From Pohlia nutans (lineage: Eukaryota; Streptophyta; Bryopsida; Bryales; Mniaceae), in contig CM040089.1 in NCBI GenBank assembly GCA_022496805.1, positions 45,244,372 to 45,308,371 on the forward strand: a DNA stretch of 64,000 bases. The letters run 5' to 3'. Below the pieces are notes generated by a model. The model was not told where the DNA came from. It ran no database searches and was given only the letters and a program-made list of their open reading frames with translations. A program made the position numbers and the translations under genes. How positions within the stretch are numbered: the stretch's first letter is position 1; every line of letters starts with the position of its first letter. Positions 4,342 through 63,815 of the stretch are shown piece after piece.

Positions 4342-4372
4342 TTAACCCTTAAACGTCTAGGATTTTTCCTCA
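4342..4372 (+). mobile_element. Solo left end of a TTAA element
   Basis: TTAACCCTTAAACGTC, identical over 16 bases to the left end of the complete element at 7350. No matching right end was found before the next elements, so this is a truncated copy or an end whose partner has decayed. Confidence 0.45.
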
Positions 4373-4699
4373 TTTTTGAGTATGCATGGTCAAAGTTTAG
4401 TTGATTTCAGGATATTCAATTTTTTTTATGTGAATATCTCACCTAATATTGACTATTTTATGAAATAAACAACTCCAATAGATGGGTTGGGAATTTTTGG
4501 AAGGGGATTATTTTTTATTTATTGCTGAAAACATCATTTTGGATATATTTTGCTAAAATCATGTGCTTGGTGATATAGTTTCTAATCTTTTGTAAGAGTG
4601 ATTCTGATTGCAGACTCGGTCATTTTTTATGAACAGGTCTGTCACTGAGATTTGATTGCTTCTATTTGTTTTTGCCATCTTCTCTTTGCACTGCAATTA

Positions 4700-5024
4700 G
4701 AGTTATCTGCAAAGTCCTTCAAAGTTTGAAGAAGATACCTAGAATTTTGCTATTATATAATTTTATTCGGTTACTCCAAATAGTTAAAAAGTATGAAAGA
4801 TCTTGGTGGTCTACAATTATTAGGTGTGTAAGAGCTTGGTGATCTTCAAAATCATGTGAAACTTTTTTGGGCACCAAAAGAGGAGTTCAAAAAAGTTTCA
4901 TATGACTTTGAAGACCACCAAGCTCTTCCATACCTTTTAACTATTTGGAGAGACCAAATAAGACTATATTAAAACAAAATTCTAGGTATCTCTTTCAAAG
5001 TTTGAAGGACTTTGTGGATAACTC
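4700..5024. mobile_element. Foldback MITE, TA target site
   Basis: Nearly palindromic 325-bp element: the two halves are inverted copies of about 150 bp around a short loop (about 4855-4885). Ends are GAGTTATC...GATAACTC, flanked by TA on both sides. A related element lies at 9298-9644. The TA duplication suggests Tc1/mariner-superfamily mobilisation, but the transposase is unknown. Confidence 0.8.
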
Positions 5025-5514
5025 TATTGTTGGTGAATCTTATGAAAATTCTGTTTTTAGCCTCATTCCTTATGATTGTTTTTGCCATCTTCACATTGCA
5101 TGGCAGTTGGTGAATTTTATGAAAACTATAGTTTTGTGTTTTGTTTGTAATGGAGTAGCAATTACGGAAGAATTATATTTCAAAATTGACAAAATGTAGA
5201 AAAGTTATCATTCTTACCATTGAGTGGATAATGTAGTTTGTTGTAAGGACTGGCAAAAAAATACTTATAAGAAGAGAAGGCCAAATATTTAGGAAGTTAT
5301 TTTTTCAAAAAAATATATTCTGTATAGTGAAATAAGAAAATCTTGAATAATATTCATAGAATTTGACATTTGTTGCAAATTAATTTTCCCAAAAGAATCA
5401 TTATTCAGTATAAGATATTGATCCTAATGGCTGGGTATGGTAACTAAGTGTGGGATAGAGGGAGAATTGATCTTGCAATTAAATTCAATCTAACTCATAT
5501 GGGTTTTGGACTTA

Positions 5515-5762
5515 GAGCATCCACAATTAACCCTCTAAACTAAATTTTTAGACTAAATTTGAAGTGCCTTTTAAATTTTTTGGACATTTGATGGGATGTG
5601 TCTAAATCAACCAATGTCCAAATCTAAACTTCTTGTACTTTCTCTATGCATTTTTAAATGCGCTTCTATGATAATGTTCTAATGGGTCTAATTCCTTGTT
5701 TGTATTAATAAATAAATTAATTAATACGCCGGGCCCTTTTAGAGGGTCCATTGAGGATGCCC
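5515..5762. mobile_element. PIF/Harbinger-type MITE, TTA duplication
   Basis: 248-bp element with terminal inverted repeats GAGCATCC...CCCTCTAAA and TTTAGAGGG...GGATGCCC, flanked by TTA on both sides. A 3-bp TWA duplication and this style of end are typical of Tourist-like MITEs. Related sequence occurs at 42876-43369. Confidence 0.75.
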
Positions 5763-6122
5763 TTACAAGATAAAGTGCATTTTTATTATTTGGTGGATTT
5801 TGAAGCTCTATTGCGCATGGCATACTATTTTATTTTGAAAGCTTCTTTATACTTTAATTTTTTTAATTAAAAATAAAGATAATTTTTTTAATAGTATTTA
5901 TTTTTAATTGAAGAAACTTTCTACAATTTAAAAAATAAATAAAATCTCTAGGCTAGTGTGATCTTGTTCTTGAAAGACAATAAGCATCTAAAGATGGTTT
6001 TTATTATTAATTTATTTTAGCGTTTGTTGGAGCTTCTAGGCAATTGAAACAAGATTCAAGACTTTTTTGGTGTGTATTTTTTGAATATCATATGAACTAA
6101 TTATGAATTTTGAAAGTGTTGA

Positions 6123-6710
6123 TTAACCCCTAAATGTCACAGTGTCCAGAAACTGGACGATTAACAGATTCAAACCTTCCCTACGTTCTCATCAATGCTT
6201 GGATGAAAGTCATCTAAATTTTTAGAGATACTTCACTAAGTTGTCGTCCTATCTAATGGTTGGATTTAGTCATACTTGAGTACATATATTTCTAAAATTA
6301 CAAATGTAGAAGTATGTCAAGTCGTTGACCAAGCCAAAATTGCATTGACTGTAGTTCAAAAGTGGCCTTGCAAAAATGAGGTCATAGATTTAAGAAACAC
6401 AAAATTTTTAAAAAATCACCATGTTATAGAGTATCTCATTTCAAATTCATTCCAACAAATTTCACTCAAAAAATATTAAAATTTTGTTTGTAATCGAATT
6501 TAGAAGGAATTTTTAATTTTAACTTTCAAATTTTATAATTAAATATTGGTGATAGTATTAGTGAATCAAACTGTACGGATGGAATCTAAAATTCAAAATG
6601 TAGAACTTTCATTTGTATATCAATTCCAAAATATTCTTCAAAATAGTAGCTTATGATGCTTTTTCTCAAATTGTCAATTCCAGGGACATCCAGGTACATT
6701 TAGGGGTTAA
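6123..6710. mobile_element. TTAA element (piggyBac-like MITE), A family
   Basis: Starts TTAACCCCTAAATGTC and ends CATTTAGGGGTTAA. The interior resembles the elements at 36298, 41858 and 48795; its left end also resembles the 41299 family. No coding capacity. See the first finding for the superfamily argument. Confidence 0.75.
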
Positions 6711-7349: not shown

Positions 7350-7740
7350 TTAACCCTTAAACGTCAAGAGGGCCTGGGCGGGGCAACCCGGAAGGTATCT
7401 AAATATTTTTGGAGAAAAAAAAAAAAAAAGGAAAAAGGAAAAAAAAACAGAAAAAACGACTCTGTTGGCCAGCCACTGTTGCGGCACTGTTGCACTGCGG
7501 CACTTTTTCAAAAACGACTTTTACTGCCCAACTTCAACTCCTATTCACTCCAACTACTTTGATTGCTTGTGGATGATTCCACAAGCTCCCAAATGAGGCG
7601 CAAATCAAGAATCTAAATTGCTTTTCAATAGCTTTCCAATGCACCAATTCTCTCTTGATTTGGTTGAGAAAAACTACTTTTTTCCTCAATTATTCCTTTA
7701 TAACAAGCCCGTGGGGCTTGCTTTGACGTTTAAGGGTTAA
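7350..7740. mobile_element. TTAA element with perfect 18-bp terminal repeats
   Basis: Begins TTAACCCTTAAACGTCAA and ends with its exact inverse, TTGACGTTTAAGGGTTAA. 391 bp, non-coding, with an A-rich tract and a GC-rich patch near the left end. Its right TTAA is also the left TTAA of the next element. Confidence 0.85.
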
Positions 7741-8320
7741 CCCCTAAAGGACCAAGGTTGGTATTCCAAGTTCGGTTAGCTTAGTGTGGAATGAGTATTG
7801 ATCCTCAATTTTTGAGATTTTTTGTGGCAATTCTACTCTTTGTAACAAAGATGGGATGGTAATTTGCATATATAGGTGATATATAGATCAAAAGATACAA
7901 TCATGCAAATGTAAAAAACCTAATTGCGGGCAACTCCTGAAAATTTGCATACTAGGAGCTATGCATTGAATTCTTGTACACAATGAGCTAACACCCCCAT
8001 ATACACAACTGCCAAATTCATTTTACCAAATCTGAGACTAAACTTTGCATTTTGTGCATTTTCAAAAAGTTTCAAACTCAGGCAAGGGCCTAAAAAAGAA
8101 GTGCAGCCAACTTTGTAGTTTATAATTTTACTATTAAAGAACCTTGAATGGTTGAAAATTTGTAGGTGCTAAGAAATTCAAATTGGTTGAAGTATCCTAT
8201 GGTTGAATCGGTCAAAAAGGGTTTAAATCAAAAACTATTTGCCATTTTATGAGAAAGAGTACTTTTAGGCAGCTTTGGAGTGTTAGGAGAGAAACATAGT
8301 TGTGGTCCTTTAGAGGTCAA
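7737..8320. mobile_element. TTAA element abutting the previous one
   Basis: Begins TTAACCCCTAAAGGACCA and ends TGGTCCTTTAGAGGTCAA, so the right TTAA has decayed to TCAA. 584 bp, non-coding. It shares its left TTAA with the element at 7350-7740. Confidence 0.7.
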
Positions 8321-8848
8321 GGCACCTACTGGACCAGAACGGGGTGGGTGCTTTTAGGTGCCTCTACTTTAAAACACATTTTTTTGGATGAACCAACCTT
8401 TTGTTAGCTGACGAAATAAAGTCAAAAGAAAAATTATTTATAGAAATAGGCTACATTTGGACCTAAAATTCATTCTTTTATTGCCAAAATATTCATCCTT
8501 GTTAATATATTTTCATCCATTTGGAAAAAATCATTCAATTATGACAACTTCATTCATAATCTAGATGAAAATGCTACAATGTTTGTTTCATTGGTGTCAC
8601 CTAGTGATTTATTTATTTTTAAATTTCAGCAAAGGGATCTTAGGGCTATAGTCACAAGGGTGAAGGTGCATTGTTGGCTAATTTCTGTTACTATGGTAAG
8701 CGACACGTGTGGCTACATTCTAAAATTGAAGTACATTGTTTTGGCTCAATCATGAACATCGTATTATAAATTATTGGCTAACTTTGCTAGCAAGGCCGAC
8801 TTTAATTAGAATGCATTGTGTAAGTTTCGAGGCGCATAGAGTCCGTGT

Positions 8849-9017: not shown

Positions 9018-9297
9018 ACGTGATACTTGTAGTTTGGCTACAAACCAGTTGGCCACTAAGAGAAATTCATCTAAGGTTGGGCTACGACCCATTGTTCAAT
9101 GTTGTAAACTTCACTACCACACCTTCCTCACGACACGAACTCTAGCTAAAATTTCCATTTTATTCATTATTTTCTTTTGTTGAAATTAGCCAACCACTTC
9201 AAAATGTAACAATCGGGATATTTTAAGTTGAAAATATCACCGGCGCCACATATTTTAAAAATGAAAAATTGTAGAAAAATCCATGGGATGGACAATA

Positions 9298-9644
9298 GAG
9301 TTATCCGCTAACTCACCTTGAGTTTGTATAAGATACCATGAATTTTGCTTTAATATTCTGTTATTTGTTCACTCCAAATAGTTAAAAGGTATGGAAGAAT
9401 TTGGTGGTCTTTCATTATTACCTTAAGTGTGTAAGAGCTCGGTGATCTCTAAACTCAAGGAGAATTCAAAAAATGTTTATTTTGATGGCAAAAGAAGTTC
9501 TCCGTGAGTTTAGAGACCACCTAATAATGACAGACCACCAAATTCTTCCATACCTTTTAACTATTTGAAATGAACAAAAAAGAGTATATTAAAGCAAAAT
9601 TCATGGTATCTTATTCAAACTCAAGGTGACTTAGCGGATAACTC
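9298..9644. mobile_element. Foldback MITE, second member of the GAGTTATC family
   Basis: 347-bp near-palindrome with ends GAGTTATCCGC and GCGGATAACTC flanked by TA. Same architecture and similar ends to 4700-5024. It ends about 300 bp before the helicase start codon, so it may sit in that gene's promoter region. Confidence 0.8.
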
Positions 9645-9944
9645 TAGTGACACATAAAAATTTGTAACTTTATTGGATCCTACACTACAATACGTGAGTG
9701 TCAGTGGTATGCGCCGCTGAAGCCCACACAGGAAAATCGTTTCAAATTCTTCTTCACATCATGCCACTCTCCGTCGTCACTGTGCCCAAGGTGGGCTGCG
9801 TAGTAACTCTCTTCTGGCAGTCAATTGCAATGGCCGACGTAACTCTCTCCCGCTGAAAGCGCCGATCCTTCATCGATTATCATGTGGCGATGTCTTCTAT
9901 GACAACAACAGGAATTGCTTTGAAAGCTTCTTCGGATCTTGCTC

Positions 9945-12900
9945 ATGGAGGCATCTTCGTCGTCATCGTCATACTTTGAGGACGAAATCGACGATTTGGT
10001 GCTGCTGATGATGATGCAGACCCTGGAGGAGTCCCAGCGCTCCGGCATTTTTCTCACTCCCGAGCAGCAGCTGGTTCTCAACTTCGTGCAGGATGGCAAG
10101 GTAACTTATTAGGGTAACTTACTGTAGACTACTTTAGGTTCAATTGTATGGTATTTCTTTCGAGAAATGGCGGGCCTGAGTTTGTTGTTGTTGGGGGCGG
10201 AAACAGAATGTCTTCTTCACTGGCTCTGGAGGAACAGGAAAAACGCTCCTTCTTCAGCGCATCCTTCTCTTCTTCAAAGAAAAGTATGTCGAAGCAAGCG
10301 ACGTGGTTATCACCGCCCCAACCGGCATTGCAGGTGCGTTTGTTTTTAGGGTTTAGGGTTTCTCTGGTTTTGCTTCATCCTTCTAACTTCTAACCCCTAA
10401 ACAAGACTAAAGAACCCCGAATTGAACCTCATTTTTTTAGTAGGTTCTATTTGGACTTCCCTTTCTTCAAATTTATTTGTGACCAACACATGCAATGTTC
10501 TTCATTGTTTCCGGTGATAGAAATTTTGGTCCTAGCTGTATTATATTTTCCACAATATGATCGATTGAAGAACTTGTCATTTTAAAACCAAGAATCCTTT
10601 GTCCTTTAGAGGCTAATGGCTTGTTGTTGTGTCACCCTGTACAATCTAATGTGGCCTTGAGTTTTGGAATGTTTGAAGGCATATTCAATTCATGTGTTTT
10701 GTTCTTTCTCTGGGACTCACATAATACATGTGTGGGGGACGTGGGATGGTCAGCCATACCCATTGGAGGGTCCACTATACACAGGGCAACAGGAATCGGC
10801 ATACCACGGAGGAAACAAGATTTTGGCAGGATGTGGAAGAAACCAAACAGAGACAAGTGGCGCCGAGCTCAAGTCTGGATCATTGACGAAATCTCCATGG
10901 TGAGTGCTGAGTTGCTGGACTACTTGGAGCAGACCATCAGGACCATTCGGTCAGACCAACGCCCTTTTGGTGGTCTTCAGGTACGGGTATTTTTTTCCGG
11001 TGCAAGTGTTTTGCCCTTCCTTCTCAATGCCTGGACACTCATCCCATCCATTATTTTGGATATAGTAGGTCTTGCACCTACGGAATGCAACTTCTAATCA
11101 TACTCGAGAATGGTGGGCTTGCTTTCTAGTCAGTCATTTACTGCATGAAGGTTTTTGGAAATTTTAATGCAAAAAGAACAAAAATAAGGACAGTGTAACT
11201 GCCAGGCTTTGTCCTAATCTTCTTCTTTATATTTGTTGTAAATATTTTAGCATATATGTTGTATTAGGAGAGTACATTGCTTGCAAATTTAAGTTTTTTT
11301 TAGTTTAGTTAGCGTTGTATGAAAAGTATGTTTTGAATCATCCAAAAGTGGGCAGTGTGAAAAGGGTGCGCAATAGGAAGTGGACTCTCAGAAATGAGTG
11401 TAAATTGATGGGTAGTCTTTGTCAAAGGAACAAAGCTAGTAAAGAACATCTGATTTATAAAGAAGGCATACAATAATCCAGGCCACTAAAATAACTGGAT
11501 AGATTCACCGCAAGCGAGAGATTGTTGGCTTGTAATTTATCAATCAATGTTTTGCAGGTTATATTTGCAGGCGACTTTTTTCAACTACAACCGGTGCAGG
11601 AGAGAATGCAAATGGACGAAGATCAATTTATGAACAGAGGTCTGGCATTTGAGGCACCTGCATGGCACAGAGCCAACTTGGCCATGGTCATCTTGAAAAA
11701 CGTCTTCCGTCAGGTGGGTTCTAAAGCTTATTCACAACTGATACGCATATTTGATACGCTTAATACACAATTGATATAATATGTACTAGGTAACCGTTGT
11801 CTAGAGCAAGGTTACCATGAATAGTCAAGCCGCAAGCTTACCATGAATATGAATAGTCAAGTCTTGTAGCAGTGAGACTATTTGCTCCAAACAACGGTTA
11901 CCAGATAACCATCGTTGGGAGTGTTGAGTTGACTCATATTCATAGGAGTAAATGGACGGAGTTTTCATATCCATGGGGTGAATGGATGGAGATTTCTCTC
12001 AATGGTTATGGTTTTTGGTTTTTCAATAGCATATATTCCTCACAGGCTTGAATGTTTTTTCCTGAGCTAATTTGATTGGTATTGAAATGCAGGGAGATAA
12101 CACTTTTATTCAGATGTTGAATGGTATTAGAACTGGGGAGAATCCAACAGCATTAGAAGTGATTGGCAAGCGGTGCTTGAGAGAACTTCCTGTGGTAGAT
12201 GGGATTAAGCCAACAATCCTCTATTCAAAGTGAGTGAAATCCTCTGTATGCATTTTCTCAAGTAGCTCCTAGAAAACAAAACTACAAACTCTATTATAAG
12301 GTCGATTCAAAGAGCATTGATGATGCAATTTACTTGTGATTTCTGTGATTATGTGATGGTGCATCTCTTGTTGTCTCAGGAACAAGGATGCTGATGAACA
12401 CAACATCAAAGAATTAAATAATTTGCCAGATGAGCCGGATGACCAGCTCATTGACAAATTTGGTTCAAATCCATTCCTTCAGCGACGACGGATGATATTA
12501 ATTGCCAATGATAAAAATATTCCTAACGAACCAGAGGGCCGTGATCCAGATGTCTATAGAGAGCAGTTTAACCAGTTGAAGACTTCAGAGTTTTGGGCAC
12601 ATTGTCATGCGATTGAAAAGATTACCCTCAAAGTTGGCGCGCAAGTATGACACCTGAATTTTTTTAACTCAATTCTCAGGCTTGAGTTTTTGATTGCTGC
12701 ATTTCAGCAGATTCATATATAGAATCACACTTGCAAGACAATTGGTGTTGATATGTGAATTTATGGACGCTGCATTTTTATTACTGCCGATCCCAATCCA
12801 ACTATACACTAGTTCTTCCAATTCCTTTGATAGTCACACCAATTTATATAAGCTCAAACGATGATTTTATGCAGGTGATGTTATTGCGGAACTTGGAACT

Positions 12901-14110
12901 GGAGGGGAAGGAGAGTGATCTTGTCAATGGATCTCGTGGAGTAGTTGTGGGGTGGAAATCTAAGGAGGAGAAACTGAAGGAATTATCACAGGAGAACAAG
13001 AAGCTGTCAAAACAAACACGTTATGATGACAAGTCTCCACCCCCAATGAGTGCTTACGAAAGGCTCCGAAACAGCAGCATTGAATTCATTCCCATTGTAA
13101 AGTTCAGAAATGAGCGCTGCATTGACTGTATTCCTGAGATATTTGAGTATCCAATCTTGAATGTTGGATGCTGCAGAAGACTGCAAGTAAGCACCCTAAA
13201 CCCTAAACCCTAAATCCTTAACAACAGGTGAATTTTTTGTGTTGTTCATCGGTGCATCTGAATTTGGGTCGTTTTCATGTGCTCATGTTCATTTGCTGGC
13301 AGGTGCCTCTTAAGTTGGCGTGGGCACTCACCATCCATAAATGTCAAGGTACACGTGGTTTGATTGTAATTAGATTTTCTTACTTGTTTGCAGTTCAAGC
13401 TTTTGCTCACATTCAGTGGCTGAGAAGATGTGCATGGTATCATTACAGGAATGACACTGGACTACGTGATAGTCAACCTGAAGAACATTTTTGCTGAGGG
13501 TCAAGTGTACGTGGCGCTCAGTCGTGCGCGGTCCATGGAAGGCTTGCAAGTCATTGGAAATGCCTCCCGTCGTTATGTCAAGTATGTGTTGTCAATTTCC
13601 ACTTTAGCTTGATTGCCCTTGAACTTGTCACTATGTATCAGTGTCTTACATTTAAAACTTTCATATGTATACTGCTAGTACATAGTGGCACAAATGGGGT
13701 GAACTGCTGAGATGATGTAGAATTTCTAGAACTAATGCTCCGATTGCGATGCATTGCTTTGTGAATTGAGCAGGGTTAGCTCAAAGGTTGTGGAGTTTTA
13801 CAAGGCCTTGGCCAGGCAAGAAGCGCATTTGGTCAGACCACTGCAGTTTCCAGAGCTGGATTTGGCAGAGGCCATGATGTATTATAGGTCTGCCGAGGAG
13901 ATGGTAGAGCCATGTACATCTTCATATAGTTGCATTACAGATGCGAAGCCACACTCGAACTTGGATACTCCTACTCCCTTTGAAAAATGGTCTGGGAAAG
14001 GTTTCCCAGTTGCTGTGATCTGTTACCATTGTCACCAAAGAGGCCATCCAGCATGGAGATGCAAGCGAAAGCAAGTAGTGGCTTGTGCTTCGAAACAACT
14101 CGTCATCTGA
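9945..14110 (+). CDS. PIF1-family 5'-to-3' DNA helicase with C-terminal CCHC zinc knuckle (631 aa, 10 exons)
   Basis: Exons 9945-10100, 10207-10333, 10754-10980, 11558-11713, 12093-12229, 12380-12644, 12875-13186, 13303-13348, 13449-13581 and 13774-14110 join in one frame with GT-AG introns. Motifs in order: Walker A GSGGTGKT (58-65); APTGIA then GGSTIH (motif Ia, about 90-104); Walker B IIDEISM (137-143); GDFFQLQPV (175-183, motif III); VNGSRGVVVG in exon 7; AWALTIHKCQGMTLD (466-480, motif V); YVALSRARS (496-504, motif VI). All residues expected for ATP hydrolysis are present. PIF1 enzymes unwind DNA 5'-to-3' and act at G-quadruplexes, replication forks, telomeres and in organelles. Unusual: the last exon adds a 111-residue tail ending in a CCHC knuckle (Cys603, Cys606, His611, Cys616). 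There is no Rep domain, so this is a cellular gene and not a Helitron. The ATG at 9945 is the first in frame after a TGA at 9900. No clear organelle transit peptide is visible. Intron 2 carries a small TTAA-type element. Confidence 0.93.
10390..10616. mobile_element. TTAA-type element with CTAA duplication, in helicase intron 2
   Basis: Left end CTAACCCCTAAAC, right end GTCCTTTAGAGGCTAA; CTAA is repeated directly at both ends in place of TTAA. The interior (CCAACACATGCAATGTTC, ATTTTGGTCCTA, TTTTAAAACCAAGAATCC) matches the element at 24867-25115. 227 bp, non-coding. Confidence 0.75.
11787..11904. repeat. Small inverted repeat in helicase intron 4
   Basis: GGTAACCGTTGTCTAGAGCAA and TTGCTCCAAACAACGGTTACC form arms of about 20 bp around an internal stretch in which TACCATGAATA...GAATAGTCAAG is itself repeated. 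Probably a small MITE; no target duplication could be fixed. Confidence 0.5.
13193..13216 (+). repeat. Short telomere-type repeat in helicase intron 7
   Basis: Three consecutive (A)CCCTAAA units just after the exon 7 donor. This is the plant-type telomere heptamer; single related heptamers occur elsewhere (about 10350 and 63825). Too short to mark a former telomere. Confidence 0.7.
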
Positions 14111-14712: not shown

Positions 14713-15945
14713 TTAACCCCTAAAGGACCAAGTGTCCTAACTAGGACATTTACAAAACTGGGTAGGTTCCCCCGATGTCAATTTTGAGTTTACTATTTTG
14801 AGATTTTTAGTGAACATGAGGAATTTCAAGAGCTTCGTGGGAATATATATATTTTTCCCCACTGGACATTGGTAGAAAAAGTTATGTTGCCCAAAGCTGT
14901 TTTTTTGCGAGGCAAGGATGCTCGGGAAAAATGCTACACTACTCCAAAAGCTCTAAAATTTGATAGGAAGCAAGTGATATGATATTATTTGGGATGGTAA
15001 AAAAAAAGAACTCTTTGTAATTCAAAAATTTCATGCTCAGAGGAGTCAAAAATTTCTAGCGTGGTTGGGTAGGGTGGGAAAAAAAAAACTTCTTTTAGAG
15101 ATAAAAATTAGAGATTTGGTTATTTTTTGTAATTTTTTTCCTACATCAAAAAGAGACAAGAATATTTGTCTTTACCGTTTGGATTGAGATATTAAACAAA
15201 ACCAAGTTCACAATAAAATTAAATGTATTTGGCAAAAATTCCATTGGATTTAACCCCTAAATGACAAAGGAGGTAAGGGCAAAACCTAGATGTGTTATAA
15301 AATGCTACTTTTGCAACTTCGATGAAATTTAGTTCAAAAGAGAAAATGAGAAGCATGAGTTTTAGTAATTATCCGTATTGTCAAACTTTCAAAAATGTTT
15401 TAGATACTCATTTAATGAATTTAGGAGCATTTTCCATCTAATATTCACCAAAATAAAATAAAATAAAATTTAGAATTTGAGATTTGGTATGATTGGTTAA
15501 AGCTAGACATTCTATTATAAAATCTAGAAAAGAAAATTTTCAAAGGAGAGATTATTGTTAGTTTCCCCAAATAGTAAATTCTATAACACTAGGACAATAT
15601 AGAGGTCTTTGTCTTTGAAAAATTCTCCTTGGTGGAGTTTAACTTGGATTGACATGATTCAAATTGGGTTAAAAAATAAACTTGATTTCCTATTTGAAAA
15701 TTTTTATTTTATTTTTTATTAAAATATTTTTTCCATCTTGGGCAACCTGTATAATTGTATAAAAAGAGAAGCGACTATAAATTGATTGTCATTTGGTCAC
15801 TTTATGGTTTAAAGGACAAATTTTTACAGTTGGATAGTGAAAAAAAGGTTTTTTTTTTTTTTTTTTGAAATTGTGCCTTAGGGATTAGAAATGGCAGCAT
15901 TGTAGTGTAATTTGAGCAAAATAGTCCTGGTCCTTTAGGGGTTAA
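14713..15945. mobile_element. TTAA element interrupted by a second TTAA element
   Basis: Outer ends TTAACCCCTAAAGGACCAAG and CCTGGTCCTTTAGGGGTTAA are inverted copies over about 18 bp. A second TTAA element occupies 15250-15812; without it the outer element is about 670 bp. Non-coding. Confidence 0.8.
15250..15812. mobile_element. Nested TTAA element, C family
   Basis: Starts TTAACCCCTAAATGACAAAG; the interior (CCTAGATGTGTTATAA, AAATTTAGTTCAA, TTTGAAAAATTCTCC, GGTGGAGTTTAACTTGG) aligns along its length with the elements at 43639 and 59438 and, inverted, 23792. The right end is decayed (GGTCACTTTATGGTTTAA). Confidence 0.65.
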
Positions 15946-16896: not shown

Positions 16897-17244
16897 GAAT
16901 AGTACCATTGCATGGTACCGGTGTTCTCTACATCTTATGTAGCTCATTAATGCGTTTCTATTTTCAACGCCAATCTGACAGAGGGCCAGATGCCCCTTTT
17001 CACCCCGCCGGCAGTCTACAGTAAGAAATATATATACAGCTGTCCAAAAACACTGCAATTCAACCATACTAGTGTTTCGCAGTGTTTCAGTGTTTCAGTA
17101 AATCACCGATGCATCCCTGGGGCCCGTCTTGGTTTTCATCCACTGCCCCGATTTACTTCATGCTACAGTAAAACCGCAACCCTCTGCATGAAACATTGTT
17201 GTGCATGCCAATGTCACATGACAAGAATAAGGCTGAGTGGAGTT

Positions 17245-17350
17245 ATTCCATAAGGTTTGTGCCATTCGCAATTATAGTGAGGGTATATAGCATTGTGGGT
17301 TTGAAGGGAGAAGCGCACCTTTCTTTGCCTTTTGGCTAAGATCAAGTGTA
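17245..17350 (+). pseudogene. Truncated U2 snRNA gene: promoter plus first ~34 nt (left arm)
   Basis: At 17317-17350 the sequence ACCTTTCTTTGCCTTTTGG followed by CTAAGATCAAGTGTA matches the conserved 5' end of U2 snRNA, then departs just before the GTAGTA branch-point-recognition sequence. A TATATA box lies at 17284-17289, about 30 bp upstream of the expected start, and ATTCCATAAGG (17245-17255) is a poor match to the plant snRNA upstream element RTCCCACATCG at about the right spacing. The rest of U2 (branch-pairing region, Sm site, 3' loops) is absent, so it cannot make a functional snRNA. Confidence 0.7.
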
Positions 17351-17847
17351 AATATAATTTGCAACTTTTGTCTTCAAGATTCACCTAATTTGCATTAGAT
17401 TATGAAGTACAAACTTTCTACGAAAATTGTCTTCAACTTGGCCGACTTCTCACTCCTTACAGACAACGCACTCTCAGTAGGAAATCGTGTCGACGTTTAC
17501 TTCACATTTACTTCACTTTGAGCGTCAAGGCCTACCAATAATTTGTCTCTACATTAATTCTCATACTCAATCTGTGTTTGTTCACTCATGATCAAAGACT
17601 ATCAAGTTTGGATTCAAGCTGACCTTGCGAGCTTCTGTTCGAGATCATTGAGCTTACTGCTGAGTGGAGCCATTCTCTCCTATGTTGTGATTGGGCAGGC
17701 CAGATAATTCTTCTAGTCAGGTCCCACTAGCAGTAGTGAAACAGGGTTGTCAACATGTCATGGAGTTGTACGAACTTTCCTACGAAAAACTGTCTTCAAC
17801 TTTTTTACTTCATAATCTAATGCAAATGAGGTGAACCTTGAAGACAA

Positions 17848-17970
17848 AGGTTGCAAATTATATTTACACTTGATCTTAACCAAAAGGTCAATAAAGGTGT
17901 GTTTCTCTCTTCGAACCCACAACACTATATACCCTCACTTTGATTGTGAATGGCACAAACCTTATGGGAT
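17848..17970 (-). pseudogene. Truncated U2 snRNA gene, inverted second copy (right arm)
   Basis: Read on the minus strand: CACACCTTTATTGACC, TTTTGGTTAAGATCAAGTGT, preceded by a TATATA box near 17925 and ATCCCATAAGG, which is closer to the plant upstream element RTCCCACATCG than the left-arm version. Like the left copy it stops before GTAGTA. The two copies differ at several U2 positions, so neither arm is a recent copy of the other or of an active U2 gene. Confidence 0.65.
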
Positions 17971-18744
17971 AACTCCACTCAGCCTTATTCTTGTCATATA
18001 ACATTGGCATGCACAACAATGTTTCATGCAGAGGGTTGCGGTTTTACTGTAGCATGAAGTAAATCGGGGCAGTGGATGAAAACCAAGACATGCCCCAGGG
18101 ATGCATCGGTGATTTACTGAAACACTGAAACACTGAAACACTGCGAAACACTAGTGTGGTTGAATTGCAATGTTTTTGGACAGCTGTATATATATTTCTT
18201 ACTGTAGATTGCCGGCGGGGTGAAAAGGGGCATCTGGCCCTCTGTCAGATTGGCATTGAAAATAGAAACGCATTAATGAGCTACATAAGATGTAGAGAAC
18301 ACCGCATGGTACCCTAGGTCACTATTGGTACATCAATAATGGCCTTGGGTACCATGCTCTGTACTATTCCTTGGTGTCCAAAAACCACCTTTGTACGACA
18401 GTAGTGGCATGTCCTTGAGTGCGACGGAAGGGAAAAATAAGAATCTGGAAACTCTCACTGTAAGTTCAGAATGCAGGTCCTCGAGGCTGGGCAGGACCCA
18501 AGTCTGCAAGAGTCCTGTATATCGGACATTCTGATGCAGAGAGTGACGTATTCAAATTTGCTTGCAAGCAGCTTTGCAGGCGAACATTCCTTTGTGTGGC
18601 CACCTCGTGTGCTATCTGAAAACCGGGCCACGAACCAAGTTCGATCAACAACAGAAACTTGTAAAAAACAAGTAATGGTCGTTTTACTTGTTTTATTCAA
18701 GGATAGCGAAGTTTGCTTGAATTTTTACAATTAAATTTCGGGAC

Positions 18745-19606: not shown

Positions 19607-20921
19607 CCGCGTCCCTGAGGCGCAGAAAGTGAGTCCGGCTGCGTTGCCGGCTCCAACGATCTGAGTCGTTGATGGGCGCTCCCCCATCCAATGGTGACGT
19701 GAATCTGATGTGGCGCACAGTGGCTGTTCTCCGGCACGGGTCTTCACGCATGGGCAGCCGGTTTGACGGGCACACACATTACATCGGGAACCCTGTTGGA
19801 TGGGAACGCGGATGTATGGGGGGCACAGTTTCCGCCGAGTGCAAGGAGTTGAAGGAAAATCCTTTCATTATCTCTGTGCAAGCTCACTACAATGCAAGCT
19901 GCAAGTTCACTTCAGTGCTAGCTCACCTCAGTACATGCTCATGGCATATAGCAATGCATTTCTGATTTGATCTTCTGAGCCATTCTGAATCTGGAGTTTT
20001 TGCACGTACTAGCTAGCCTTACCACATTCAAGCTTCCAAAATTTCATGATGATTAAAAACATGGACAAGGATAACAAAATTTCATGAAGGGTAATGCTAT
20101 ATCCTGCTCATATTTTGTGGCTCTCTTACTGGTATTGAATTTTCAGTATGAAATACGGGCACTTTTCATCTAAGTGTAAGAGAATCTTATGTTTTTAGTG
20201 GTAGGGTGGAGATGCTCTAAATTAGAGACAACTTGCTTTTTGGTTATGTTGGAGGAAGGGACGCGGGTTTTCGACATGTGGAAAGCTTGGAGTATACTGA
20301 CGACGAAGATGAATATATTGACTTCTCTATGCTTTTTCATGAAGAAGAGGACGAAGAATTTTTTGATACAAAGTCAACTTCAACCTTTATCTGAAAGCAT
20401 TCTCAATGTAGACCCTTCATTTTATGTAGCTGATGAACCTCTTGAAGAATTTCACCGACATGTTAAGAAAAGATGTTAGAGGATTTGTTATCCTTGTCCA
20501 GGTTTTTAATCATCATGAAATTTTGGAAGCTTGAATGTGGTAAGGCTAGCTAGTACGTGCAAAAACTCCAGATTCAGAATGGCTCAGAAGATCAAATCAG
20601 AAATGCATTGCTATATGCCAGCATGTACTGAGGTGAGCTAGCACTGAAGTGAACTTGCACTGAGGTGAACTTGCAGCTTGCATTGTAGTGAGCTTGCACT
20701 TGGCGGATTTTCCTTCAACTCCTTGCACTCGGCGGAAATCCCGATGTAATGTGTGTGCCCGTCAGACCGGCTGCCCATGCGTGAAGACCCGTGCCGGAGA
20801 ACAGCCACTGTGCGCCACATCGCATTCACGTCACCATTGGATGGGGGAGCGCCCATCAACGGCTCAGATCGTTGGAGCCGGCAACGCAGCCGGACTCACT
20901 TTCTGCGCCTCAGGGACGCGG
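19607..20921. mobile_element. Mutator-like foldback element with ~470-bp inverted repeats and 9-bp duplication
   Basis: Ends CCGCGTCCCTGAGGCGC and its inverse; inverted arms run to about 20077 on the left and from about 20490 on the right. Flanking 9-mers CTCGGCGGC (19598-19606) and CTCAGCGGC (20922-20930) look like a decayed target duplication; the unoccupied relative at 39386-39394 reads CTCTTCGGC. Long terminal repeats and a 9-bp duplication are hallmarks of MULEs. Arms are GC-rich compared with the host element. No mudrA-like transposase is present. Confidence 0.8.
20120..20395 (+). pseudogene. Possible captured gene fragment inside the Mutator-like element
   Basis: The single-copy centre reads KYGHFSSKCKR (20152-20184), like the second half of a CCHC zinc knuckle, then after a frame change an acidic stretch LEYTDDEDEYIDFSMLFHEE (about 20290-20349) up to a stop near 20395. 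It could be a remnant of a host or retroelement gag-like gene picked up by the element. Short, frame-broken and weakly supported. Confidence 0.3.
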
Positions 20922-32556: not shown

Positions 32557-32559
32557 TAA

Positions 32560-35135: not shown

Positions 35136-35137
35136 CC

Positions 35138-48794: not shown

Positions 48795-49376
48795 TTAATT
48801 CCTAAATGCCCACAACTCTCTTCAGATTTGGAGAATTGCAAAAATGCACTATAAAATGCAACTAAGAGGGATATTTTGAACTTGATGTATATAGAATAAA
48901 AGTTGTACATTATGACTTTTGGATTCTATCCATTTGGTTAAATCTATGATTGCTATCACCGATACTTTTGTATACAATTTGAAACTTAAAATTCAAAATT
49001 ATTTTGTAATTTGATTACGAATAACATATTGACAATCTATGGATGAAAACTATTGTCATGGGTTGAAATGTAATATTCTAACTGTAGTGATTTTTGGAGA
49101 TTTTTTTGGTTGCTTAATTTTATGAATTGATTTTTTCAAGAGCACTTTTGAACTAAGATCTTATAAATTTTTGGTGAAGCACTGCAACATGAAATGAGGC
49201 ATATGTAAAATTTTCACAAATCATCCCCTTTCTAATCAGTTCATACAAGCATGAAGCTAACTTCCCATAAAGTCTATAGTAAAAAATCCACATGCAAAAC
49301 ATGCATGACAGATGAGAAAACGTGAATGAAATCTGTACATCGTTCAAAAATGGATGTTTGGGCAGTTAAGGGTTAA
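48795..49376. mobile_element. TTAA element, A family, inverted
   Basis: Starts TTAATTCCTAAATGCCC, ends TGGGCAGTTAAGGGTTAA. Inverted relative of 36298 and 41858. 582 bp. Confidence 0.82.
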
Positions 49377-54396: not shown

Positions 54397-56645
54397 CTAT
54401 GAACCGAATTTCAAGAGCAGCCCCTCCACGGTGATCCCGGGCCCAAATGACAGAGCTGTTGTCCAAGGGTGGATGGTAGAATCCACTTTCTTATCACGGC
54501 GTAACTTGTCAAGCACAAACAATACAGTCGTGGCCCCCATGTTCCCATAGCTACCCAAAATGTGTCTGCAGTCACACATTTTAAATCCCAACAACTTGTT
54601 AGCACTTTGAATTATGAATATATCACAACCATATTAACATTCTTAATCAATACAACTGGGGCGGGAACTGGGGTCTCATTTTGAAATCTAACACGTACAG
54701 TACATGGGACAATAAACGCGGAAAGTTACGTACACAAAATCAAATTATCTTCCAAAATCCCTTGAGTTCCAATTCAACTACTTTCGCTTACAAGCTAATT
54801 AAAACTAAAGTTGATGTACTGTAAGTTCCAAAATGGCATCTAGATATCTTCCCTTTCAAGCGTAAAGCTAAGGTTGAGGTGAAAATTAAAATCCTTATTT
54901 TTCAAGAGTGGTTCCAAGCTAAAGTTGAGGTACAGTTGAAAATCCTCGTCCTTTCAGGTTGCGTTCAAGCCTCTATCAACCTACAGTTAAAGTTGAGGTA
55001 AAGTTTTAAATCTTTCACCTTTCAACCTGGGCGTTCAACCTAAAGCTAAAGTTGAGAATCTAAGAATGAGCGAAGGCACATTTTCATCTGGACCCATTCT
55101 TTTAATATTGACAGGAGAATATTTGTCACTTCATCATTACAAGAAAGGGACATCGATCTCAAGCCTGGTAAAGAATGTTGTGAGCGGGGTTACTTACACC
55201 TTCTGCAGTCTAACTTAAATTTAATCAATTTCACAACTTTAAATAAAGTCATCCATGGTCGAGCTCGAGCATGAAAGTACAGTACACTTTGACCTCGTTA
55301 TTATCACACTCTCCAATATCTGCGGGAGAATATTGGCTGTTGTAAACTGTTGTGATCTAGTTGTGAACTGTTGTGACCTAGTTGAACACTTTTACAAATG
55401 TCCAGTTTTAAACAGTTTGAACATGTATATTGGTTAGCAAAGGTGTGACATAAGAGAGTTCGAACTCAGTGTCCGTACCTGGACGACTGGAGCTGCTCAG
55501 GTTTCAGCTTGCAACTCTTCTCGACAGCGTCGAGGATGCCCTTGCCTCCGGGATGGCAAGCCCAGTTGACAGTGGCGAAGCTGAGCTTGGTGTTGTGCAG
55601 AAGCTCCGTGACGAAGCCGCCCACATGTTGCGCCACATGCAGAGGCACATTCTTCTCCAGAGTGGTGTGCATCCCGGATTCCAGCAAGATGGCGCCGATG
55701 CTCGTGCTGGAGTCCGGAATCAGGTATGTCTGCGACCGGTGGACCTCAAGGATGCTGGTCTCCTTCTTCGTGGGGTGCTTGCCTACCACCACGGCGCCCG
55801 ATCCATCCCCAAATAACATGTTGACTAGAAACGGGCTCAAGTCCGCAGACGGATTCGCTGGGTTCAGGGTCTGGGCCGCCACGGAATTGATCTCCACGAA
55901 CACCGCAAGAACCCGGTTATTGGGGTCGGCCTGGGCGATCTCCGCCGCGGTCCGGATCCCGTTCACACCGCCGTGGCAGCCCAGGAGCGAAACGCTGAAG
56001 TGCTTCACGGTGGGCTTGAGGTTCAGGACGCGCAGGAGACGCAGGTCCAGCGACGGCGACAGCAGCATGGACGTGGAGTACGTGATGAGATGCGTGATGT
56101 CGCCGCGGTCGCCGCCCCAGTCGCTCAGCGCCCTCTCGGCCGCGAGCTGGCCCGTCTCCATGGTTGCCGGCTCGTAGATTCGGAACCTCTCTCCCAGGTT
56201 GGACTCATTGAATCCCGACAGACAGGGATTGTCTTTGTACACCTGGTACGACGCCACCACCTGCTTCTTCTTAATCCCTGATGCCTTGGCTGCAAATCAA
56301 CGTCCACCCAACCAGAATCATATCAATGCATGGAACGTTGACTGTCATTTCCTACGTTGAAATCCATGTACTCAAACAGACGTACATGTACAGTCTGACC
56401 GCTCGCTTACCGACACGTTCCACAAACGATTTCGCCAGCGGCATGTCTTGATACCCGTAGATTTCGAGGATCATGTTTCCGAAGCCTTCCATGCTGAGTC
56501 CTGTCTCGGGGTTGGCGGTGCCCAGGCCCAAAATGCAGCTACGAGAAGGGTCCGCCGGGGCCTCGTGGTACTTGGCCTGATCAGTTTCTGTCCACAGGCT
56601 GTTGGGATTGGGAGCTGAAGCGAATTGGTCCGTTGGTGGCGCCAT
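54397..56645 (-). CDS. Type III polyketide synthase (chalcone-synthase family), 404 aa, 3 exons
   Basis: Homodimeric enzyme family that extends a CoA starter with malonyl-CoA and cyclises the product; starter and product here are unknown. Exons (minus): 56645-56411, 56289-55479, 54565-54397, joined by GT-AG introns in phases 1 and 2. Intron 1 splits the codon before KASGIKKK, matching the phase-1 intron position (a Cys codon) of plant chalcone synthases. Catalytic triad intact: Cys183 in LLGCHGGVNGIR, His324 in WACHPGGKGIL, Asn357 in SYGNMGAT; Phe238 of LFGDGSG corresponds to the CHS gatekeeper, and SFGPGITVE is the C-terminal signature. Normal family length. Notable: GCHGG follows the active-site Cys where chalcone synthases usually have GCFAGG, so this is probably not a true chalcone synthase. 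Closer in feel to alkylresorcinol/alkylpyrone or stilbenecarboxylate-type enzymes of non-seed plants, but product assignment is not possible. Much higher GC than flanks. Intron 2 carries short tandem repeats. Confidence 0.95.
54840..55062. repeat. Degenerate tandem repeats in polyketide synthase intron 2
   Basis: Four units of about 53-70 bp, each with (G/T)TTCAAGC, AAGCTAAAGTTGAGGT and CCTTTCA. Wholly inside intron 2 (54566-55478). Function unknown. Confidence 0.65.
55320..55392. repeat. Short repeats in polyketide synthase intron 2
   Basis: AACTGTTGTGA(T/C)CTAGTTG occurs twice in a row (about 55346-55386), preceded by a partial copy. Confidence 0.55.
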
Positions 56646-57128: not shown

Positions 57129-57131
57129 TAA

Positions 57132-58265: not shown

Positions 58266-58272
58266 CTGAACT

Positions 58273-58320
58273 GATGGGGAGTGCTCCCCTTCTCAATAGA
58301 GATAGGTCCCCAATTTTTCT
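58273..58320 (+). repeat. Half copy of the GATGGGGAGTGCTCCCC foldback
   Basis: GATGGGGAGTGCTCCCCTTC then TCAATAGAGATAGGTCCCCA, identical to one arm of the element at 61586-61793. Flanked by TTTCGTTAAA (58257) and TTTTAACGAAA (58355), which may be the ends of a larger element. Confidence 0.6.
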
Positions 58321-58379
58321 ACAATGCTCCTATTCCACGAATAATTCAATGGTCTAGTTTTAACGAAATGTGAGTCGGT

Positions 58380-59437
58380 CACAAATAGGTGTACATATTT
58401 ACTTTATACATCCAGAATTAAATTTGATGGATTAAATTCGTTTTTCATTTACAACCATTGAGTCTACAAAAAAATTATTTCTCATTACAATAAACCCTTG
58501 AAAGCACTCTTTATGACTAACATTCATAACATAACATTTTCTATGACTAGCATAACATTCATAACATTACACCCTCTATGACTAACATAACATTCAAAAG
58601 CATGCAATGGCACTATTTGGTCCTACAGTAGATGGTATAGCATATTCTACACCCAACAAGATTTCATCAGTAGTTAATTGGACATGTGGAGTTCTAAAGT
58701 GATGAACATAGTATATGAAGAAAAGGCAGAAGGCATAAAGGCTACTCAATGTTATGAAGGTTAAATGAAATTTTGTATTTAATTAGTGACATTGTGTTGT
58801 GTTGAGGACACTTTTACATTCATTGTAGAAACACGCACACATGAGGCAGCAAGGCATATTGTACATGGTACTCCCAAGGGGTGCACTCTACATTATGTTT
58901 GAGAATCACGTGCGTTCATGACCCCCTAAAAGAAACCCATGAATACGAGGGATTATATGTCTAAAAACCTTTGTATACAAATTTATTCCGCCCTAAATAT
59001 ATGTTTAATGTATGTGCATGTCAATATTTTTAGTTCTAAATATGTTTATTATATGCATACATCATACAACAATGTACAAATTAATACCCTTTCTGTGCAC
59101 TCACGTATATTTGTATGTGTTTATTATAATACAAACCCCGGGATGGCACTCTCTTGTGAGAACACGCTAACACCCTTTCATTTTATTGTTATTTTTTGAA
59201 GAACAACAACTGAAGGAATTGAAAGGCTCTTGTCATTGTTTATTTATTGTCTCTGCTCCACGAGGGGAGAGACTACAAAACTGCTTCGTTTTGAGGGAGT
59301 TACGTGGCTGAACAATATAAACAAGTTGTAAAAGTGAATCTAGAGTAAATACTAAGGTAAAGATTACGCGACTAGCCAAATGTTGTTTTTAAACGAAAAG
59401 GGAGTAAGGGAGCCTCTTACTAAAAAGGAGAAAAAAA
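58380..59437. other. Intergenic repeat-derived DNA
   Basis: 58500-58600 has repeated ACTAACATAACATTCAT-like units. 58880-59110 matches 30345-30850 (GTGCACTCTACATTATGTTT, TGTATGTGTTTATTA). GGCTACTCAATGTTATGA lies at 58738. No gene. Confidence 0.45.
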
Positions 59438-59972
59438 AGATCGAGGGGTATTGGACAAAACATAGATGTGTTATAATATGTGCCTTCCATATGTTTGATG
59501 AAGTTTGGTTCAATAAACAAAATGTAGAGTATCATCTCTACAAATTATCCGTACAGTCAAACTTCCAAAAATAACTTTAGATCACTTTTTAATGAATTTA
59601 AAAGCATTAACCTTTGAAAATTTGTATAAATTATAATTTTCAATTTTAGAGTTCAAAATTTAGTATGATTGGCTAAAGTTGGGCTATCTATTGTAAACTT
59701 CAAAAAAGCAAAAGAAATGATGGAGGGATCATCATTACTTTCCCCAAATAGCAAATTTTATAACACTAAGACAATGTTGAGGTGATCTACTTTGAAAAAT
59801 TCTTCCGGGTGGAGTTTAACTTGGATTGCCATAATTCAAATTGGGTTGGAAAGTAGACTTGATGTAGTATTTTTAAATATTTTTTATTTTTTCAAATTTT
59901 TTTTTTGTTCCGGGCAGCCCGTTAGATTCGGGCAGCGACCAGAAAATGGTCGTTTGAGCGCTTAGGGGTTAA
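59438..59972. mobile_element. TTAA element, C family, left end missing
   Basis: From GATCGAGGGGTATTGGACAA onward it is nearly identical to 43639-44186, through TTCGGGCAGCGACCAGAAAA to GAGCGCTTAGGGGTTAA. The first ~15 bases, including the left TTAA, are replaced by an A-rich stretch. Confidence 0.8.
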
Positions 59973-61331: not shown

Positions 61332-62358
61332 CTAACCCTTTAGTGCCTAGAGTAGTGTAGTTGCGTGCACTAGATTTCAGTAGTTTTTTTCACTGTGATT
61401 GATACTTTCAAAAATAGAATGGATTAAATTAGAAAGTAACCGTACGATTGTATTTTCAATTAGAGTAGAGACAATTTGCCAAAATTAGAGAACAATCCAA
61501 TGGCGGAATTGCAAGATTATAGTGTGTCTTTGAAGTGTATAATGCACACTCAAAAATGAGATTTTGGAAGGTGTGTGACTTCAAAAACACAAAGTTTGTT
61601 ACAACTGCACCGCCGAACTGGAAAAGTGATGGGGAGTGCTCCCCTTCTCAATAGAGATAGGTCCCCAATTTTTGTATAATACTCTGTAGACAAATTAGAG
61701 CACTGTAGAAAAATTGGGGACCTATCTCTATTGAAGGGGAGCACTCCCCATCACTTTTCCAGTCCAGAAGCCCACTTTTAATGAAATACATGCTCAAAGT
61801 TAAATAGAATTTGGGTTTAATTTTCAGAAATGAAAGTGAAGAAGTTCCACAATGAACTATGTCAACACCTCTTCGTTGCAATTTTTTCTATCAAGAAGAG
61901 ACTCACACATAATTATTGTGAATTTTATAAGTGAGAGTGATTTATCCATATACGGTTTAGGACAAAAGTTTATACGTTAAAATTTGAAAGGAGTTGGTAC
62001 ATTGATCAAAATCATAATACATACACTACTGGAACATCATGAACAAGAGAACACAATCCAAAAAAATAAAACAAGATATCAAACTTCCAAACACAAGAAA
62101 TACCACATAGTACATGTGTTGTATTTGTAAGTGTTTACTGTATTTTCAAGTATTTGTCGTATTTTCGCGTTTTAATCATAGGTACTTTGATAGTTGCACA
62201 ACTCCAAATTGAAATTTTCTTTTTCTAGAAGATGTGTATAATAAATTTCCAACTCTAAACTTCACAATTCAAAATCCAATTCCTCAGGGATTTTATGTTA
62301 TTTGTATTTTGGACACTCCAATGACCATAATGTGATCAGCTAGGCACTAAAAAGTTAA
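61332..62358. mobile_element. TTAA element, E family, with a nested foldback
   Basis: Starts CTAACCCTTTAGTGCCTAG, ends CTAGGCACTAAAAAGTTAA. Aligns with 50238-51050 except for the insertion at 61586-61793. 1027 bp. Confidence 0.78.
61586..61793. mobile_element. Foldback element inserted in the E-family element
   Basis: Extra relative to 50238-51050 and flanked by TCAAA (61581-61585, 61794-61798). Its core 61618-61763 folds back: CTGGAAAAGTGATGGGGAGT and its inverse, ~55-bp arms around a ~35-bp loop. One arm also occurs at 58273-58320. Confidence 0.65.
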
Positions 62359-62479
62359 CTAAACTCCTGAATTTTCTCTCAAATTTTTTATATTCCGGGG
62401 CCAAAAGGCAGCCCTAACAATGGTATCCTTATTGGAGCTTCTTTGAATTCAAAACAATGACATTCATTGGTCACTTTCA

Positions 62480-62590
62480 TCAGGGATTTGTACTGGTTCC
62501 TCCTGCCAGGTCACTTGTGGCTGGCGGTATATTGTTTCTGGTTACTCTTGCAATGAAATTCCGTTTCATTTGTTCCAAATATTAAAATTT
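62480..62590 (+). mobile_element. LINE 3' tail remnant
   Basis: CCTGCCAGGTCACTTGTGGC, then CTTGCAATGAAATTCCGTTTCATTTGTTCC, the same plan as the LINE at 40024-40975 and the tail at 60248, followed by A/T-rich sequence. Confidence 0.5.
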
Positions 62591-62889
62591 TAAAAATGGA
62601 AATTTTAAAAATCAGGGGTTTGTACCAGAGCTCATTTGCATCATTTAATTGAAACAAGAAAATTCTTTGGTCACATTGAAGAAGATCCCAATATTAATTC
62701 CTCAGCTAAAATGTACCCCTGCGTCTGTTCAATAAGGGTCCTGTGCCACTTCTCCTCACATTAAATTTTTAGAGGGGTCGACTACTCTGTGGTGCGGGGT
62801 GCGGGGTGCAGGGGTGGTATATTCCCATAATGTTCCTTGAATATTCGCCAACATTAACAAAAAATTCTCTGAATCCTAAATTCTAAACC

Positions 62890-63815
62890 TTAACCCCTAA
62901 AGGACCAAGTGGACGCATTGTGTTTAAGAATAATTTCATTACTATAATAACTTATTTGGATTCCTCAATGTTAATTAGAGAATTGTAAATTTCCGTTATG
63001 AGAACACAAAAATTCTTCAAGATTTGCAATAATGTTGATTAATCCACCAGGAAAAAAACTAAAACATCAATGCAGGTGAACTTGGGACATGATAGTTAGG
63101 GAGGTTCCCGGGGAGATTGATGACTTGGAGGGCATTTTCACACTAGGACATCACATTTGTCAAAAAAAAAGTGTACAATATATAAGACATTAACAATATA
63201 TAATAATTACGGAAAATTTTAAATATATTTAAAATGGAAATTTTTAGAATCTTTGGAATCTTTTTACATATTTTATATTATTTTGGAATATTTTGGAATA
63301 TTCCAAAAATAAATTTGAAATCTTTACACATTTTATGCAATGTAACAATTAATAACATTCACAAACATTTGCTCAACCACTCATTAACAACTGTAACAAG
63401 TCACTTCACCCAAACATAAATCTTTGAGAATCAATCATTGTTGTTGTATTTAGTTTTAGAACACCATTTTTTGTGAGCACCCGAGTGAGCATCTAGATAT
63501 AGTACATCTTTGTATGCTCCTGAAATTTCAAGTGCTAGTCATGGTTTTAAAATTTATGAGAAATTTTGCAGTAAATGACCTGTTGATTTTGCTCAATTTT
63601 TTTAGAAAACAACTCATGATCAAACCTTATAATCATGTAATATATACGGTAGATTGTTCTCAAAATTGATATATAATCTCACGACTAAGTCCCCTTTGAG
63701 TTTCAATGGTGAAGTTTTCTACATGAACACCAATTAAGAGATACAACCGCCTTCTTGAAAGCATCACGAGAAAGTGATAAAACTTTAGGGATGAACATGG
63801 TTCTTTAGGGGTTAA
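62890..63815. mobile_element. TTAA element, 926 bp
   Basis: Starts TTAACCCCTAAAGGACCAAG, ends CATGGTTCTTTAGGGGTTAA. Long AT-rich interior without coding capacity; the internal 61-codon frame is chance. Confidence 0.75.

Follow-up and report, generated by a model that had tools for sequence, protein, structure and literature searches.

What are the short, TTAA-flanked elements that crowd a stretch of the genome of the moss Pohlia nutans (order Bryales), and which enzyme moves them? The stretch, here called the window, comprises 64,000 nucleotides (C5:45244372-45308371) of an assembly of 697.8 Mb in 332 contigs. The original prediction, made from the letters of the window alone, saw in it a swarm of CCC-ended miniature elements, non-autonomous members of the piggyBac superfamily moved by a transposase encoded elsewhere, in a plant host. 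The evidence supports this assignment: the window elements are almost certainly non-autonomous piggyBac-superfamily elements, both miniature inverted-repeat transposable elements (MITEs) and longer deletion derivatives, presumably mobilised by a PF13843 (DDE_Tnp_1_7) transposase encoded elsewhere in the P. nutans genome. The elements insert at TTAA and duplicate it, and elements with the same ends encode a PF13843 transposase. The plant host is confirmed by a chalcone synthase open reading frame (ORF; 55466-56293, minus strand) that is 99% identical to P. nutans chalcone synthase 847, and the checks proposed with the prediction, a genome scan for the ends, a comparison with empty sites and a search for PF13843, each in reduced form, all came out in its favour.

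Terminal Motif in the Window and in the Genome

The swarm of TTAA-flanked, CCC-ended elements is evident from counts of its terminal motif. When one mismatch is allowed, the window contains 33 copies of TTAACCCYTAAA, 21 of them exact, against a mean of 1.64 and a largest value of 5 in 100 shuffles, and TTAACCCTTTA occurs 5 times exactly, with 0.12 expected. When CCCYTAAA is counted without requiring TTAA, TTAA precedes 21 of the 25 copies in the window and 43 of 59 when the window is pooled with 24 transposase loci fetched from the genome. A genome-wide scan, which counted exact ends, found 109,650 exact copies of TTAACCCYTAAA compared with 1,163 of the reversed pattern; these represent one end type, and an intact element has two. 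Their density, 1 per 6.4 kb genome-wide and 1 per 3.0 kb in the window, makes the window about twice as rich as the average. Scaled by the window ratio of 13,067 bp to 21 exact ends, the elements would occupy approximately 10% of the genome, a rough figure extrapolated from this single window.

Of 115,026 genomic copies of [N]TAACCCYTAAA, 109,650 (95%) have T as their outermost base, and the remaining [A/C/G]TAACCCYTAAA number 5,376 (control, 929). T makes up 32% of the window, and base composition alone would predict an outer T in about a third of cases; the observed 95%, far in excess of this, indicates that the target is TTAA rather than TA. At 1,792 places in the genome (control, 0) two elements abut on one common TTAA; window instances are found at 7737 and, with a variant end, at 36862. 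The idea that the CCCTAAA of the ends derives from telomere-like sequence was rejected: the ends are TTAA-bound and are parts of long families.

Two further ends attest to high copy number. The 20-bp end TTAACCCCTAAAGGACCAAG, typical of transposase element L029 (L numbers denote loci elsewhere in the genome), has 8,371 genome copies (control, 0), and its facing copies, among the close pairs listed, span 223-240 bp. The 16-bp end of family E has 7,787 exact copies (control, 0); of its facing pairs under 3 kb among the places listed, 22 of 27 span 806-819 bp and the rest 830-2,607 bp, as judged by eye.

Element Families in the Window

The annotated parts add up to 14,590 bp, or 13,067 bp (20.4% of the window) once two foreign nested inserts are subtracted, in keeping with the predicted total of more than 11 kb. 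The predicted families A, C, E and F and the 38672/18886 pair likewise stood, with 68-97% identity between members in a self-BLAST of the window; the family interiors are mutually unrelated by the same comparison. In the proposed 22492/31696 pair the first member starts at 22482, and self-BLAST gives no alignment between the two. Eleven elements (A1, G1, 14713, 30552, A2, 38b, F2, A3, C3, E1 and 62890) have TTAACCC at both ends, and 10390, 24867, 22482 and 31696 lack clean right ends. In the elements other than those 11, one or both ends are mutated or missing, and some decayed ends were positioned by eye. Partner ends were looked for and not found for single ends at 4342 and 23661. The annotated features, in window coordinates, are:

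6123-6710 (+): A1, family A MITE, 588 bp, TTAACCC at both ends, partly similar to A2-A4 (70-73%)
7350-7740 (+): G1, MITE, 391 bp, ends TTAACCCTTAAACGTCAA, full-length relative at L019:8659-9034 (74%)
7737-8322 (+): element with a clean left end, where it abuts G1 on a common TTAA, and a decayed right end positioned by eye
10390-10617 (+): decayed copy of a ~230-bp MITE, left end CTAACCCC, 71% to 24927-25093
14713-15945 (+): element of 1,233 bp with nested C1, both ends matching transposase element L029
15250-15813 (+): C1, family C MITE nested in 14713-15945, right end decayed, 73% to C3
18886-20943 (+): 38a, with a foreign insert at ~19607-20921, 96.5% to 38b over 722 bp
22482-22720 (+): MITE fragment, only the left end clean
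23792-24235 (-): C2, family C in reverse, 86% to C3 and C4
24867-25114 (+): ~240-bp MITE whose 20-bp left end is the one with 8,371 genome copies
29640-29997 (+): left part of E3, 82% to E1
30552-30783 (+): MITE of 232 bp, empty relatives in the window, full-length relative at L031:1835-2066 (80%)
31696-31977 (+): MITE-like fragment, degraded ends placed by eye
35138-35468 (+): right part of E3, right end clean, 71% to E1
36298-36865 (+): A2, 568 bp, right TTAA in common with F1, 81% to A3
36862-37380 (+): F1, right end missing, 90% to F2
38404-38533 (+): empty relative of the L029:2625-7059 site, single TTAA, 91.5% to the joined flanks over 130 bp
38672-39406 (+): 38b, 735 bp, right end matching transposase elements L011/L012
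41299-41846 (-): F2, 548 bp, empty relative at 30044-30148
41858-42433 (+): A3, 576 bp, left end matching L019, weak empty relative at 30122-30158
43639-44186 (+): C3, 548 bp, diverged empty relative at 13634-13705, full-length relative at L029:9028-9581 (84%)
48795-49376 (-): A4, 582 bp, 84% to A3, one end matching L019
50238-51050 (+): E1, 813 bp, with the 16-bp end of 7,787 exact genome copies
59435-59972 (+): C4, left end missing, 95.4% to C3
61332-62358 (+): E2, interrupted by a foreign palindrome at 61586-61793, 81-83% to E1
62890-63815 (+): element of 926 bp, left end of L029 type

Without nested inserts the units measure about 230-930 bp, and their longest stop-free frames reach 38-115 codons; short, non-coding, of uniform length and high in copy number, they have the properties by which MITEs are recognised. 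Recent copies are seen in the window (C3/C4, 95.4%; 38a/38b, 96.5%) and beyond it, where full-length copies of E1 are 97.7% (L036), 96.8% (L034) and 93.4% (L035) identical.

Several units have themselves received insertions. E3 (29640-35468) is split by a ~5.1-kb insert, at either edge of which the same stretch of approximately 25 bp of E sequence is found; E2 harbours a palindromic MITE of another kind (inverted repeat 61617-61763), a related piece of which lies at 58269-58329; and the insert in 38a has long inverted arms (85% identity) and a 99-aa ORF without a Pfam match.

Insertion at TTAA

To look for empty sites, the flanks of 19 window elements were joined and aligned to the rest of the window, and the joined flanks of 15 transposase-encoding elements were examined as well. 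Empty relatives were found for four window elements, 30552 (three, one of them partial), F2, A3 (short and weak: 40 bp, 80%) and C3 (diverged: 79%), and in all four cases the two TTAA of the filled locus face one 4-bp site. The same holds for three transposase elements: the empty relative of L029 lies in the window (38404-38533; site TTAA), that of L026 in L012 (87%; TTAA) and that of L019 in L013 (93.9%; TTGA). Being related copies, these sites need not ever have contained an element. The joined flanks of A2 matched only their own locus, and this match was discarded; those of L014 (self) and L018 (ends of neighbouring elements) were not counted. By analogy with moth piggyBac, excision would be seamless.

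Transposase-Encoding Elements in the Same Genome

In the window itself, no transposase was seen among 11 Pfam-scanned ORFs, drawn from 55 of at least 90 aa, and T. ni piggyBac found in it by tblastn a best match of only E 0.51, so that no piggyBac transposase is recognisable there by that test. The genome as a whole contains at least 116 PF13843 domains (all 116 scored above the cut-off, of 1,305 candidates), with matches of E 1.6e-81 to 3.1e-74 and frames of up to 1,274 aa. Twenty-four of these loci were fetched, a non-random set of which 20 came mainly from the top of the list and 4 from further down. Fifteen have both ends with TTAA on both sides and are 4,435-5,968 bp long; both ends were not located within 10 kb at L013, L016, L020, L022, L023, L025, L027, L031 and L032. 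Their termini start with CCC in 29 of 30 cases and with CCT in one, the CC being partly by design since the end search required TAACC (TAAC[C/T] for the last four loci). The left end of L014 was chosen for its resemblance to that of L026; a different pair scored higher. Alignments between separate copies provide independent evidence for the element ends: they stop at the outer edge of TTAA or within one base of it (L009/L012; L015/L018/L024), and that of L009 with L012 covers 5.6 kb at 95.6%.

The encoded proteins have a piggyBac-type catalytic core. In the alignment of moss frames of at least 520 aa, which left out the shorter L012, L020, L025 and L027, D268 and D447 are present in 15 of 15 frames and D346 and D450 in 14 of 15; L009, whose stop-free frame ends before D346, is not counted for the latter two. 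Core identity to the moth piggyBac transposase is 24-28% for 15 full frames and 18% for truncated L009, and the structures matched in the PDB are piggyBac (6x67, E 5.3e-35) and piggyBat (9c0f, E 2.2e-21). Cysteine pairs are seen by eye, without the use of a model, in 6 of 6 printed moss transposase C-termini. Identity between the six main moss groups is 35-52% (full frames). Stop-free transposase frames with catalytic aspartates are thus present in the genome that holds the MITEs.

Upstream of the transposase, four elements have extra open frames of 253-414 codons (L011:2162-3229, L017:6868-8109, L018:2305-3276 and L028:1927-2685), which could represent additional exons or another gene and match no Pfam family above the cut-off. 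Of the ORFs of transposase elements other than the transposase itself, five were tested, with the same outcome.

Ends Common to MITEs and Transposase Elements

The 86 bp inside TTAA at 35 window ends were compared with the ends of the 15 transposase elements, using as the null 400 window segments outside elements (95%, score 25; 99%, 30; maximum, 34). Nineteen of the 35 ends exceed the 95% level, 13 the 99% level and 7 the maximum; in part of the families, ends are common to MITEs and transposase elements. The strongest case is 14713-15945, which matches L029 at either end: its left end corresponds to the L029 right end (score 98) and its right end to the L029 left end (64). The two elements align in three collinear pieces of 58 bp (96.6%), 101 bp (71%) and 88 bp (77%). 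Given the match at both ends and the weaker collinear middle piece, this element is best read as a deletion derivative. The ends of A3 and A4 match L019 (scores 76 and 61), the right end of 38b matches L011/L012 (52) and that of G1 matches L028 (37). In both 7737-8322 and 62890-63815 (score 36) the first 16 bases after TTAA are identical to the right end of L029.

In the mechanism suggested by these likenesses, the PF13843 transposase produced from 4.4-6.0-kb elements elsewhere in the genome would bind the common ends (CCCYTAAA..., CCCTTTA...), cut the element out and insert it at another TTAA, which would be duplicated. Judged from shared termini, the moss transposases probably move these MITEs, and families for which no partner was found would be moved likewise.

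Weighing the Alternatives

Several observations weigh against a piggyBac origin of the whole population. The fourth base of the intact window ends is C in 18, T in 13 and A in 1 of 32, so that 19 of 32 depart from the strict piggyBac motif, given as CC[C/T]T in passages of a study of coral elements (PMC2872659). At 22 of the 35 window ends the 99% null is not exceeded in the comparison with the 15 transposase elements, and these include every end of E, F, A1, 30552 and 22482. For the most part, the interiors of the MITEs have no counterpart in the transposase elements. The empty sites, too, deviate from TTAA, reading ACAA, TCAA and TCAA for 30552, TTAG for F2 and CTAG for C3; among the window elements only A3 faces TTAA.

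A mixed origin, in which E and F are moved by another TTAA-specific enzyme and A, G, 38 and 14713/62890/24867 are piggyBac, is improbable. In addition to the missing partners for E and F ends, two longer E-ended units, L037 and L038 (2.1 and 2.6 kb), have no tblastn match to the moss transposases; however, only 24 of the at least 116 transposase loci were examined, and the ends of E and F (CCCTTTAGTGCC and CCCTTTAACGCGCC) resemble known piggyBac ends such as that of coral AmiPB2, which starts CCCTTTAACGCCC. Kolobok-superfamily MITEs also make TTAA duplications, but their ends, as characterised in the available portion of PMC9587614, are 5'-RR..YY-3', whereas those found here are 5'-CCC..GGG-3', CCC at the window termini being partly by search design. 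The same-ended transposase elements examined carry PF13843, in a genome that was not searched for a Kolobok transposase, and the chance of a Kolobok origin is minute. Elements of the Tc1/mariner or PIF/Harbinger type, targeting TA or TWA, could have ends ACCC..GGGT beside TA and give only the appearance of TTAA; since TA together with A..T ends would also leave a single TTAA, an empty site alone cannot separate the two targets. The outer T, at a frequency that base composition does not explain, and the PF13843 of the transposase elements with these ends render such an origin scarcely credible.

CACTA/CMC-EnSpm elements have CACTA-type termini and make a 3-bp duplication. The elements described here differ in termini, duplication and transposase alike, which leaves next to no probability that they are CACTA/CMC-EnSpm derivatives; elsewhere in the genome, CACTA elements may well be present. 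The idea owes its place to published moss annotations, in which much of the DNA-transposon content is so labelled, as CMC-EnSpm in Pohlia (PMC9247546) and as CACTA in Ptychostomum (PMC11704416), insofar as the accessible parts of these papers go.

Relatives of the Moss Elements and Known Systems

A protein search with the moss transposase gave 111 matches; the few that bear an organism name are all from animals, the best being a mussel protein (34%), and unnamed environmental and transcriptome sequences reach 74%. No named moss relative appeared in a database that includes Ceratodon and Physcomitrium, which is weak evidence from a search by 5-residue words. With T. ni piggyBac as the query, all organism-named proteins among the best 120 of 965 matches are from insects. 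A quick tree was built from 72 rows, 15 from the moss and 57 selected from the database matches of both searches. It unites all 15 moss rows with 21 unnamed ones in a single group (100 in the Shimodaira-Hasegawa-like approximate likelihood-ratio test, SH-aLRT), apart from 11 named animal rows. The moss rows are scattered within this group (8 label changes), and the unnamed row P0180 lies very near moss L026; some of the unnamed rows are therefore probably moss DNA.

The kind of element is already known; what is new is the moss host, the scale and the diversity of transposases. The moss proteins resemble T. ni piggyBac and piggyBat (PDB 6x67/6x68 and 9c0f) in core sequence and catalytic aspartates, and their elements in TTAA target and CCC ends; they differ from T. 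ni piggyBac in the modest core identity given above, in host and in element length (4.4-6.0 kb compared with the 2,472 bp quoted for piggyBac). Wuneng and Microuli, a MITE and a miniature subterminal inverted-repeat transposable element (MSITE), come from rice. They make TTAA duplications like the window elements, a likeness by description, drawn from passages of PMC2872659. Coral CMITEs and AmiPB, in the same passages, are alike in TTAA duplications, in CCCTT-type ends and in having MITEs with partner piggyBac-like elements; the left end of AmiPB2 resembles in particular the end of F1 (PMC2872659). The coral CMITEs are shorter, at approximately 100 bp, than the window units (PMC2872659). Kolobok and the Xenopus T2-MITE agree with the moss elements in TTAA duplication but not in termini or transposase, according to the available part of PMC9587614.

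The premise that piggyBac is little described in land plants needs qualification. No report of a piggyBac transposon in a moss was found among the literature matches listed, subscription literature being mostly outside the search; piggyBac or TTAA elements have been mentioned for rice, angiosperms and a fern. PiggyBac is counted among the angiosperm MITE superfamilies in an excerpt of a review (PMC10004981), and 1,230 PiggyBac copies appear in an excerpted fern repeat table (PMC6890710). The P. nutans genome paper reports 23.68% DNA transposons and shows a CMC-EnSpm track, and the words 'piggyBac' and 'MITE' are absent from its main text as available (PMC9247546). In a related moss CACTA is the largest terminal inverted repeat (TIR) class, as stated in the accessible text (PMC11704416).

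Other Features of the Window

Host genes in the window are represented by a PIF1-like helicase (10561-13210), a cyanase (21773-22078) and the chalcone synthase mentioned above (55466-56293), all three seen in the Pfam scan; the CYNS N-terminal domain match of the cyanase ORF is slightly below the Pfam cut-off. Scans of the window with Rfam (gathering threshold) and for tRNA gave no matches. An insert of ~1.9 kb (26097-28066), flanked by a 71-bp direct repeat (98.6%) ending in a G run, interrupts a Tc1/mariner-like coding remnant whose two parts were placed by eye at ~25680-26100 and 28100-28500. Long palindromic elements at 4698-5030 and 9293-9649 are related to each other, and it is a relative of theirs, within L013, that provides the empty site for transposase element L019. 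An inverted repeat at 16919-18304 has arms of ~500 bp (93% identity) with ~390 bp between them.

Implications

Work on piggyBac has centred on animals, and in plants it has served as a tool brought in from outside. With its many native transposase genes free of stops, and ends to match them in the tens of thousands, the moss offers a natural plant system for TTAA-targeted transposition. On balance, a notable part of this land-plant genome probably consists of a piggyBac population that is large and diverse and has been active recently, perhaps to this day: its transposases, of at least six lineages (35-52% identical) in a moss-containing clade apart from the 11 named animal rows, would have seeded tens of thousands of MITEs, a native plant system largely filed under other names. 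The result could help to put right how DNA transposons are labelled in moss genomes, and it prompts a testable question about the history of the clade, which may have been present in mosses since ancient times or have entered them by horizontal transfer.

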